This document shows positions 24,900 to 27,476 of a stretch of DNA of 64,000 bases, piece by piece. The translations under genes were made by a program, and so were the position numbers. Source of the DNA: Kangsaoukella pontilimi (lineage in GTDB: Bacteria > Pseudomonadota > Alphaproteobacteria > Rhodobacterales > Rhodobacteraceae); assembly GCF_009830125.1 (NCBI RefSeq), contig NZ_WUPT01000001.1, forward strand, positions 372,001-436,000, written 5' to 3'. How positions within the stretch are numbered: the stretch's first letter is position 1; the number at the start of each line of letters is the position of its first letter. The notes under the pieces are model-generated. The model saw only the letters and a program-made list of their open reading frames with translations, made no database searches and was not told the origin of the DNA.

Positions 24900-25754
24900 A
24901 TGCGACGGTTCCTGACGGCGGCTCTGGCCGCGCTTTTCTTTGGCGTCCCTGCCGCTGCACAAGCGGAGGAGGCGTCGAGCCTAACCACGTTGATGACTGC
25001 CTACGAGGCGCGCGGCTGGGAAGGCGTGGGGCGGCTGAACATCGGGCGGAGCGGTATGTGCACCGGCGCGCTCGTGGCGCCCGACCTCGTCCTGACGGCG
25101 GCCCATTGCATCTATGACCGGTCCGGCGACCTTGTTGCCCCCAATGAGATCCAGTTCCTCGCTGGGTGGCGCAACGGGCGCGCCTCGGCCTATCGTGGGG
25201 TCCGGAGGGCGATCGCCCACCCGAGCTATGAATATACCGGCCCCGAAAGCGATTTGCGCGTGGCCAATGACATCGCGCTTCTCAAGCTCGATAGCCCCAT
25301 CCGGCTGGCCAATGTCCAGCCCTTCGCCACCGCCGATCGCCCGCGCAAGGGCAGCTCGGTCGGTGTCGTGTCCTATGCCCATGACCGTGCGGACACGCCG
25401 TCCCTGCAGGAGGTGTGTCACGTTCTGGCGCGCCAGAGCGGAAGCCTGATCCTGTCCTGTGACGTGGATTTCGGCTCTTCGGGCGCGCCGATCTTTACCG
25501 AGGTGGCGGGTGAACCGCGGATCGTCTCGGTCGTCTCGGCCAAGGCGATGATCCGGGGACGGCCTGTCTCGATCGGGACAAACCTAGAGCGGCCGCTGGC
25601 GGAGCTGATGGAGATGATGAACACGCCCGGCACGGCAAGTGCGGTCGCTGTAACAACAGCACGGCGGGTCGTGCCGGGCCGTATCGGCTCAGGCCTGACC
25701 GGAGGCGGCGGCGGCCTGAACAGCGGCGGCGGGGCGAAATTCCTGAAACCTTGA
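24900..25754 (+). CDS. exported trypsin-like serine protease (S1 family)
   Basis: 284 residues with a signal peptide cleaved about AAAQAEE. The catalytic triad can be read: His in LTAAHCIYD, Asp in VANDIALLKLD, and Ser in DFGSSGAPIFT. Cys pairs (CTGALV with AAHC; CHVLA with LSCDV) suggest disulfides. The C-terminal tail is glycine-rich (GLTGGGGGLNSGGG) and probably disordered. It is periplasmic or secreted; the substrate is unknown. A second S1 protease follows immediately, so the two form a tandem pair. Confidence 0.9.
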   Translation: MRRFLTAALAALFFGVPAAAQAEEASSLTTLMTAYEARGWEGVGRLNIGRSGMCTGALVAPDLVLTAAHCIYDRSGDLVAPNEIQFLAGWRNGRASAYRGVRRAIAHPSYEYTGPESDLRVANDIALLKLDSPIRLANVQPFATADRPRKGSSVGVVSYAHDRADTPSLQEVCHVLARQSGSLILSCDVDFGSSGAPIFTEVAGEPRIVSVVSAKAMIRGRPVSIGTNLERPLAELMEMMNTPGTASAVAVTTARRVVPGRIGSGLTGGGGGLNSGGGAKFLKP

Positions 25755-25786
25755 CGCGTGCCGCACGCTCGGACAGCGTTTCCGAC

Positions 25787-26458
25787 ATGTTGCTCCGGGC
25801 CATTGCCGTTTGCCTTCTGGCTTTGCTCCTTCCTGCCGATGCCCCCGCGCAGGACCTTTCGGCCAGTGCGGGGCGGCTGGAGCGTCTGGGCGTGTCCGGC
25901 ACCTGTTCTGCGACGCTGGTGCGCCCCGATGTGGCGGTGACTGCGGCGCATTGCGTCCGCCCGGATCAGGTCCGTCAGGGGGACGCGCCGCAGCTCTTCT
26001 TCCGGCCCGGATGGCCGCGCGATGCAGGACGCATGGCGGTGGTCGACGTGGTCCGGCACCCGCTATACGCCCCGGCACGCGAGGGCGAGCGCTGGCGGTT
26101 TCCCTTCGATATCGCCGTCGTCCGACTGGCGCGTGCTCTGCCGGAACGGGTGAACCCGCCGCTTGCCTTGGGCCGTCCGCCGGAGCCGGGCGAGTATCTG
26201 ACACTGGTCAGTTGGAAAAAGGATCAGGATGCGCCGGTTCTGCGCCCCTGTCAGGTCGTGCCCGGGGTCGAGGCTCTGGTGACGATCGCCTGCCGCGTTG
26301 CGGGGGGCGAAAGCGGCGGTGCGGTCATCCGCGCAGGCAATGGAGCGCCCGAAATCGTTGCGGTTCTGACCAGCCGCGCGCAGATTGGTTCGCTTCCGGT
26401 CGGGCAGGCGAGCGCGCTGGAATTGCGGCTGGCACCGATGCTGCACCGGTTGGACTGA
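25787..26458 (+). CDS. second exported trypsin-like serine protease
   Basis: 223 residues from the ATG at 25787 (MLLRAIAVCLLALLLPADAPAQ, a clear signal peptide); an in-frame TTG at 25751 overlapping the previous stop is possible but less likely. Triad: His in VTAAHCVRP, Asp in FPFDIAVVRLA, Ser in AGGESGGAVIR. CSATLV and the later CRVAGG give disulfide candidates. It is similar in plan to the preceding gene but shorter, without the glycine-rich tail. The pair probably arose by an old duplication. Its end lies just before the hsp20 promoter. Confidence 0.87.
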   Translation: MLLRAIAVCLLALLLPADAPAQDLSASAGRLERLGVSGTCSATLVRPDVAVTAAHCVRPDQVRQGDAPQLFFRPGWPRDAGRMAVVDVVRHPLYAPAREGERWRFPFDIAVVRLARALPERVNPPLALGRPPEPGEYLTLVSWKKDQDAPVLRPCQVVPGVEALVTIACRVAGGESGGAVIRAGNGAPEIVAVLTSRAQIGSLPVGQASALELRLAPMLHRLD

Positions 26459-26474
26459 CAGGCGCCAAAGACCC

Positions 26475-26506
26475 CTTGAAGCCCCTCTGATCGCTTCCCA
26501 TCTATG
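26475..26506 (+). promoter_or_regulatory. sigma-32 (RpoH)-like promoter for hsp20
   Basis: CTTGAA at 26475-26480 and CCCATCTATG starting at 26497 match the alphaproteobacterial heat-shock pattern CTTG, 17-18 nt, CYTATNTNNG, with 18 nt between CTTG and the downstream box and one mismatch. Transcription would start near 26511, giving a leader of about 90 nt before the hsp20 start. Confidence 0.65.
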
Positions 26507-26517
26507 CCCTGTCGGAC

Positions 26518-26602
26518 GCCGGTAACCGGGTCCGGCAGCAGAAACCGCCCTGCCCGTGACGGGAGGGCTCACATAGTTGTCGCTCAATGGAGGATGACGC
26601 TT
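26518..26602 (+). ncRNA. ROSE-like RNA thermometer in the hsp20 leader
   Basis: Three consecutive hairpins can be drawn. The first is GCCGG/CCGGC (26518-26536). The second is GCCCT-G-CCCG/CGGG-AGGGC (26547-26568), loop TGA. The third spans 26576-26598. In the third, TCGCT (26580-26584) pairs with AGGA (26591-26594), leaving G26582 unpaired, and is extended outward by GTTG/TGAC with two G-U pairs. This is the defining ROSE element, U(U/C)GCU against AGGA with a bulged G, sequestering the Shine-Dalgarno GGAGG (26589-26593) nine bases before the ATG. Heat would melt it and release translation. Confidence 0.62.
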
Positions 26603-27061
26603 ATGCGTACGTTTGACCTTGCACCGCTTTATCGTGCAACCGTCGGCTTCGACCAGATTGCCGACCTCATGGACCGGGTTCTGACCGATACCCAATCGGC
26701 CCCGTCCTATCCGCCCTACAATATTGAAAAAACCGCTGACGATGCCTGGCGCATCTCGATCGCCGTTGCCGGCTTTGCCGAAGACGACCTGTCGGTCGAG
26801 GTCCGCGAGAACGCGCTGATCGTGACTGCAAAGAAGAGCAAGGAAGACGACGGCCGCAAGTATCTGCATCGCGGCATCGCCAACCGCGCCTTCGAGCGCC
26901 GCTTCGCACTGGCCGACCACGTGCGCGTGACCGGTGCCAGCCATACCAACGGTATGCTGAACATCGACCTTGTCCGTGAAGTGCCCGAGGCGCTGAAACC
27001 GCGCCGCATCGAGATCGCCAAAGGCGACACGGTCGAGGCCAAGGCCGTCGAAGCTCACTAA
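26603..27061 (+). CDS. small heat-shock protein (Hsp20/IbpA family)
   Basis: 152 residues from the ATG at 26603 (MRTFDLAPLYRATVGFDQI), chosen because GGAGG lies nine bases upstream; ATG 26594 is too close to it. The alpha-crystallin domain runs from YNIEKTADDAWRISIAVAGF to LVREVPEAL, including VEVRENALIVTAKK and GIANRAFERRFALADHV. The C-terminal IxI-type anchor reads RRIEIAKG. This is a holdase chaperone in the cytoplasm. Promoter and leader both point to heat control at transcription and translation. Confidence 0.96.
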   Translation: MRTFDLAPLYRATVGFDQIADLMDRVLTDTQSAPSYPPYNIEKTADDAWRISIAVAGFAEDDLSVEVRENALIVTAKKSKEDDGRKYLHRGIANRAFERRFALADHVRVTGASHTNGMLNIDLVREVPEALKPRRIEIAKGDTVEAKAVEAH

Positions 27062-27084
27062 GCTTGTTTATTGACGAGTTACCG

Positions 27085-27114
27085 CGCCCGGAGGTCAATC
27101 CTCCGGGCGTTTTT
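27085..27114 (+). terminator. rho-independent terminator of hsp20
   Basis: A perfect 10-bp stem CGCCCGGAGG/CCTCCGGGCG with loop TCAAT, followed by TTTTT, 23 bp after the hsp20 stop. The T run is on the plus strand only, so it serves hsp20 rather than the converging doxX gene. Confidence 0.93.
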
Positions 27115-27476
27115 CATGCCCGGCTGACAAGCGCCGCAAGCTGCCCGCGGTAGGCATAGGCGGCGAGCGCCGACAGCACCAGCAACAGCGCCAGATGCCA
27201 CCACGCGCCTCCGATGAAGACCAGCATGGCGAATATCGCCAGCACCATGGTCAGCGTCAGGGCAAGGGCGGCAAGGGCCTGCGCGCCCGGCACCCAGAGC
27301 GCCACCGCGCCAAGCGTTTCGACGCTGCCTGTCACGTATCTGATCCATTGCCCCATGCCGAGCGCCTCGTAGAGCGCCACCGCCGACGGCGTGCCGAGTA
27401 GCTTGGTCAGCCCGAAATACAGGAAAGCCAGCGTCAGGCCGGCGCGAAGAAGCGTGAGGGGCATGTTCTGTATCAT
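27114..27476 (-). CDS. DoxX-family membrane protein
   Basis: 120 residues with four hydrophobic helices: LLRAGLTLAFLYFGLTKLLG, YVTGSVETLGAVALWV, LALTLTMVLAIFAMLVFIGG, and HLALLLVLSALAAYAY. The RAGLTLAFLYFGLTKL opening and the GxxE in TGSVETLGA are DoxX landmarks. The role of DoxX proteins is poorly defined; some are linked to quinone or thiosulfate oxidation. It lies 44 bp downstream of the ALDH16 gene on the same strand and could be cotranscribed. Confidence 0.85.
   Translation of the reverse strand: MIQNMPLTLLRAGLTLAFLYFGLTKLLGTPSAVALYEALGMGQWIRYVTGSVETLGAVALWVPGAQALAALALTLTMVLAIFAMLVFIGGAWWHLALLLVLSALAAYAYRGQLAALVSRA

Follow-up and report, generated by a model that had tools for sequence, protein, structure and literature searches.

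The leader of an hsp20 gene in the window (the whole 64-kb stretch of DNA analysed here) is, with a probability that we put at about 0.93, a ROSE-type RNA thermometer lying behind a heat-shock (RpoH) promoter. It carries the features by which the ROSE class is described in the portions of the literature available to us (PMC3669281, PMC11342760, PMC13104619), namely a U(U/C)GCU motif facing the Shine-Dalgarno sequence, a single unpaired G inside that motif and, as is typical but not universal, a small heat-shock gene downstream. Elements of this type were already known in the wider clade, since ROSE-like motifs preceding ibpA and hspD of Nautella sp. R11, a member of the Roseobacter clade, were reported in 2011 (PMC3230580). 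That case shares with the present one the type of gene and the wider clade but, in the accessible part of the report, is a mention in the text without a family-wide model or covariation. What is new here is the count across the family, along with the covariation and the failure to reach the Rfam cut-offs. ROSE-like elements have also been described upstream of ABC transporter and quorum-sensing genes (accessible parts of PMC11342760 and PMC13104619).

The hsp20 gene, its promoter and its leader

The gene, of the IbpA/HspA type, occupies positions 26603-27061 of the plus strand, on which the promoter, the leader hairpins, the Shine-Dalgarno sequence and the terminator-like hairpin described below also lie. 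It starts with ATG and encodes 152 amino acids; its product matches PF00011 (1.8e-19) and scores 156.7 bits against the IbpA model NF008013, under the cut-off of 212. A Shine-Dalgarno sequence, GGAGGA, lies at 26589-26594, 8 nt upstream of the start codon. We note an in-frame ATG at 26594 that overlaps it, nine bases upstream of the start at 26603; relatives favour the second of the two. Downstream of the gene, a terminator-like hairpin followed by a T run (27084-27110) has 11 pairs, nine of them GC, terminator-like sites in this 1-kb stretch numbering two against 0.9 expected. Two consecutive trypsin-like serine protease genes, both opening with stretches that by eye resemble signal peptides, lie just 5' of hsp20 (24900-26458).

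The sigma-32-type promoter (26475-26505) consists of CTTGAA (26475-26480), a 16-nt spacer and CCCATCTAT (26497-26505); the window has a single occurrence of CTTGAA-N14-17-CCYATNT, where 0.01 would be expected. It agrees with the sigma-32 consensus given as CTTGAA-N13-18-CNCCATAT in the available text of PMC3669281, the match in the -10 region being close and imperfect, and no match to the sigma-70 consensus was found in 26300-27300. Judging from these motifs, the promoter is presumably used by RpoH and transcription probably starts near 26511. CTTGA and a -10 box recur in 80 of 81 loci (the window and the best 80 of 484 confirmed orthologous loci), with a spacing of 15 in 23 of these 80 and of 16 in the other 57; the sole miss is L015, whose contig begins inside the promoter.

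Between promoter and start codon, the leader of about 92 nt is predicted to form three hairpins. Hairpin I (26511-26536) carries a bulged G26518, and hairpin II (26547-26568; GCCCU-G-CCCG..CGGGAGGGC) likewise has a bulged G. Hairpin III (26576-26598), the proposed thermosensing hairpin, sets UCGCU (26580-26584) against AGGA (26591-26594) and leaves G26582 unpaired. The elements of the original prediction (a heat-shock promoter, two hairpins preceding a third in which UCGCU faces AGGA with one bulged G over the ribosome site, and an hsp20 gene downstream) are thus all present where it had placed them.

Conservation and covariation in orthologous leaders

A protein search yielded 484 confirmed loci, of which the best 80 were kept, with Hsp20 identities of 72-88% among these 80. 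The nearest of the 80 are titled Silicimonas, Paracoccaceae and Boseongicola; of the others, some are titled Rhodobacteraceae and some carry wider alphaproteobacterial labels, and part of these remaining relatives we take to be Rhodobacteraceae. The relatives of Hsp20 thus bear out the earlier suggestion of a Rhodobacteraceae-like genome. All 81 loci (the window and the best 80 of 484) carry T[TC]GCT-N3-9-AGGA just 5' of the start codon, and UYGCU, the bulged G and AGGA are kept in all of them while loop length and other pairs differ.

Covariation was scored on A1, a sequence-only MAFFT alignment of 80 rows comprising the window and 79 of the best 80 of 484 orthologues, L015 having been excluded on account of its truncated promoter. 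On the window's structure, 85.9% of cells are paired, and its lead in paired cells is partly built in as the structure was taken from one row of the alignment. Changes on both sides were found in 22 of the 29 pairs, with covariation in all three helices. The covariation score was 0.309 against 0.150 in shuffles (0/500 as high) and at most 0.124 in six slid registers, in which partners were shifted by 1-3 columns; kinship among the rows inflates such scores. Hairpin I is the best-supported helix, 10 of its 11 pairs having changed on both sides. Hairpins II and III, with II in its majority register, show 12 of 18 pairs doubly changed, a count equalled or exceeded in 1/500 shuffles, and a covariation score reached in 0/500. 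Structural conservation in orthologous leaders, on which the original prediction had staked its reading, is therefore seen. In all 80 rows, moreover, AGGA is predicted to be less exposed in the real leader than behind shuffled upstream sequence (mean unpaired 0.077 versus 0.422 at 37 °C, with ten mononucleotide shuffles per row). Tests of the bulged G can also draw on the natural variation among the 80 rows.

A single 5' bulged G is found in hairpin I of 80/80 rows (alignment column 17), in hairpin II of 79/80 individual folds, none being detected in the remaining one, and in hairpin III of 80/80 aligned rows. The Rfam consensus of RF00435 has such a G in hairpins I and III; the RF01832 consensus, whose two hairpins are the counterparts of II and III here, has it in both. 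We infer that the three bulged-G hairpins form a serial array of one hairpin unit.

Relationship to the Rfam ROSE families

At gathering thresholds, no Rfam family matches in the window. A search of 26300-26800 at a looser threshold returned the two ROSE families as its two best RNA-family matches, both alignments ending at 26609, just past the start codon: RF00435 (ROSE) at 36.8 bits, where the gathering score is 45 (E = 5.4e-4, 26512-26609, model positions 1-94) and RF01832 (ROSE_2) with 30.4 bits against 65 (E = 1.5e-4). The covariance-model search proposed in the original prediction hence singled out the expected families and left both under the Rfam cut-offs; at 36.8 bits, the leader does not belong to RF00435 as curated, though it answers the description of the class. 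It likewise falls short of the 65 bits of RF01832, a cut-off that, among 14 control genomes, E. coli reaches.

With RF00435, which we take to be the rhizobial hspA type, the leader shares an end-to-end alignment, a hairpin I in which a bulged G precedes CC..GG and the same Shine-Dalgarno hairpin, but its hairpin II has a bulged G that is missing from the RF00435 consensus. With RF01832 it shares the form of hairpin II (GCCUGUCC..GGAAGGC) and the thermosensing hairpin, whereas the match begins only at the end of hairpin I.

Predicted folding, proposed mechanism and alternative readings

Hairpins I and II are present in each of the best folds inspected. Hairpin III forms when folded alone and also when leaders ending at 26602, 26605 or 26611 take their best fold; it is absent from the best fold when the sequence extends to 26622 or 26640. 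With coding sequence to 26622, the pair probability of the ROSE core is 0.05-0.11 at 37 °C, and its mean over the window's core is 0.48 with 45 nt from the start codon. Among the 80 rows of A1, core probability exceeds 0.5 in 71 when the leader is taken to the ATG; adding 12-45 nt from the start codon onward brings this number to 42-50. The mean unpaired fraction of the ribosome site, in the leader to 26611, rises from 0.21 at 25 °C to 0.40 at 55 °C, a modest gain computed by nearest-neighbour folding, which ignores non-canonical pairs. Deletion of G26582, which the original prediction had expected to stabilise the helix, lowers the energy computed at 37 °C for hairpin III on its own, from -8.2 to -12.0 kcal/mol; the energy model thereby agrees in direction with the role ascribed to the bulged G, the removal of which lowers heat induction in oppF (PMC11342760, as far as available). 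That hairpin III opens with heat is an inference, and so is the temperature at which it would melt.

In the proposed mechanism, RpoH activity would be low at normal temperature, and the UCGCU of the hsp20 mRNA would pair with the Shine-Dalgarno sequence in hairpin III and keep ribosomes off, the hairpin being held imperfectly owing to the bulged G26582 and weak pairs. On heating, RpoH would yield more hsp20 transcript, and hairpin III would open while the GC-rich hairpins I and II remain folded, such that Hsp20 would be made at once. The short ROSE-like thermometer of Pseudomonas ibpA offers a close parallel, with a sigma-32 promoter and a U(U/C)GCU hairpin over the ibpA Shine-Dalgarno sequence; two-layer control by sigma-32 transcription and a ROSE-like leader, and melting confined to the Shine-Dalgarno hairpin, are described there, although that leader has two hairpins against three in the present one (accessible text of PMC3669281). 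By analogy with Pseudomonas ibpA and oppF, heat would both raise the transcript and open hairpin III.

Three other readings were weighed. Taken by itself, the 15-base core pattern is no rarity (one found against 0.75 expected in 64 kb), so that the case draws its weight from where the pattern lies, at the ribosome site, from the hairpins beside it and from conservation. A chance UCGCU/AGGA match in a GC-rich leader, the reading for which this expectation speaks, is rejected on the grounds of position, the Rfam matches, covariation and the detection of the element in 110 of 120 genomes (see below), and its probability is negligible. It is also quite unlikely that the leader structure represses translation while RpoH-driven transcription alone accounts for heat control, with the hairpins serving mRNA stability or a constant damping of translation. 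Such an arrangement would fit the small shift in predicted ribosome-site exposure over 25-45 °C, the GC-rich hairpins I and II that would remain folded and the proposal, in the part of PMC3669281 available, that 5' hairpins stabilise the ibpA mRNA; against it stands the retention in 81/81 loci of UYGCU, the bulged G and AGGA, features known to be needed for thermosensing.

The remaining reading concerns which structure acts as the switch in this species. In the best fold of 26511-26622 at 37 °C, the Shine-Dalgarno stretch (26592-26600) is paired to the start of the coding sequence (26605-26614), the ribosome site still being covered, and this fold is predicted to be 1.7 kcal/mol better than the ROSE fold, a gap that we judge small relative to the error of the model. 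It relies, however, on wobble-rich pairing with coding sequence, and the aligned relatives, many of which show ACCC or ACC before the ATG, do not keep the window's ACGC-UUAU-GCGU stem, whereas the pairs of the ROSE hairpin covary over the 80 rows of A1. We accordingly regard the coding-base fold as very unlikely to be the working switch, and retain the ROSE-type thermometer as the preferred reading.

Distribution of the element in Rhodobacteraceae and Alphaproteobacteria

A covariance model built from the hsp20 leaders of A1 (R1) was run at E up to 0.01 on 120 Rhodobacteraceae genomes, one per genus and including the window's own, and matched 110 of them. Among the other 109 genomes matched, seven share their leader letter for letter with a row of A1; once these and the window's genome are removed, 102 of 112 are matched. 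Within the class, 68 of 190 genomes are matched, three of which are listed as belonging to the own or the same family. In the same 120 Rhodobacteraceae genomes, RF00435 reaches its cut-off in one and E up to 0.05 in 16, and RF01832 in none and nine, respectively. Most sampled Rhodobacteraceae thus appear to have a ROSE thermometer, which for the most part goes undetected by the public models at their cut-offs; its absence from annotations accordingly means little.

Hsp20 is encoded downstream of 111 of the 114 R1 matches in the family (99, together with L088-L096, L099, L119 and the window) and of 67 of the 72 in the class. The exact TYGCT..AGGA core is present in 127 of 135 further R1 matches (98/99 in the family, 29/36 in the class) and missing from eight (1/99 and 7/36); CTTGA lies just upstream in 124 of the 135 and is missing from 11. 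The matches without Hsp20 are weak, and comprise three in the family (G119:C215, G070:C7:117401 and G064:C69) and five in the class (L124, L125, L126, L127 and L128). Apart from L127, which precedes rpoH, and L124, the six others look like chance. L124 (101-208; G216:C1; R1 E = 0.002) places a TATCGCTCAAGAGAGGA core (TCGCT..AGGA) directly before an alcohol dehydrogenase-like ORF, and could also be a chance match.

ROSE-like leaders upstream of rpoH

The class match L127 (G140:C25, E = 5.6e-4) is followed by rpoH rather than hsp20, the downstream gene scoring 327.1 bits against TIGR02392, above the cut-off of 323.1. R1 at E up to 1 detects the rpoH leader in one of the three genomes of G140's family, and on direct reading the core precedes rpoH in all three. 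A search with that RpoH gave matches in 243 of 289 genomes, and for the 30 loci that matched best we read the region upstream of rpoH. A plain TYGCT..AGGA lies directly before the rpoH start in nine of the 30: L140, L141 and L142 (family f22), L282 (f38), L281, L284 and L287 (f73), and L285 and L290 (f90). Three more have irregular cores, with AGGG instead of AGGA in L279 (f38), a 16-nt gap in L293 (f69), and AGGA followed by a second AGGAGG closer to the start in L283 (f50).

An upstream bulged-G hairpin folds in most of these twelve leaders; MAFFT alignments of the rpoH leaders (A2, A3 and A4) misalign hairpin I across families. R1 scores E up to 0.0026 in eight of the twelve and is weak (0.062 to 0.56) in four, and in L290 it scores another place slightly better than the leader; selection by core inflates these scores, which makes the rpoH leaders a strong lead and not proof. 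The control set consisted of 38 other rpoH loci, namely the other 18 of the 30 and 20 upstream pieces of 321-326 nt picked mostly from small genomes; R1 at E up to 1 gave four matches in it, none on the leader. A looser motif search found TTGCT-N18-AGGA before the start in one of the 20 pieces (L323), without an R1 match. In a tree of RpoH (28 of the 30 rows, L285 and L290 being left out), whose bootstrap had yet to settle, the ten labelled rows require two changes against 8.4 in shuffles (0/500 as low); all ten lie on the same side of a 100/99 branch, as do the element-free L278 and L288.

That ROSE-like leaders precede rpoH in one clade of small-genome Alphaproteobacteria is thus a strong lead from comparison of upstream regions. 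We consider it probable that this clade recruited the thermometer for translation of sigma-32, with one or more bulged-G hairpins followed by a UYGCU/AGGA hairpin that covers the ribosome site and with warming raising sigma-32 directly, and that ROSE leaders in general are serial arrays of one hairpin unit, in which a single 5' bulged G lies beneath a short apical stem, the last unit lying over the ribosome site. No report of a ROSE element upstream of rpoH was found in the literature searched, which, as far as its texts were available, lay mostly outside subscription journals. The E. coli rpoH leader is an RNA route that makes the master heat-shock regulator temperature-responsive. Should the leaders described here function as their appearance suggests, ROSE would provide a further route of this sort beside it, and would extend from effector genes to the master heat-shock regulator.

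Additional ROSE-like sequences

The sole RF00435 match above cut-off among the 120 Rhodobacteraceae genomes (L138, 1001-1092; G101:C1:527325-527416; 53.3 bits) sits apart from the R1 match of the same genome and represents a second ROSE there, perhaps acquired from elsewhere. A search of the window's whole genome found no second strong ROSE match, the next places being weak for both RF00435 (16.6 bits, E = 9.6) and R1 (13.8 bits, E = 2.06). The second hsp20 of this genome (L004/L139) gives a weak R1 match of 13.4 bits (E = 0.018 in 24 kb). We note that a core, GTGTCGCTTTGGTGAAGAGGACGC, lies directly before the ATG of this second gene (L139, 342-365; C3, 490241-490264), and that the gene also has a promoter-like stretch, CTTGCG-N15-CCCCATAT.
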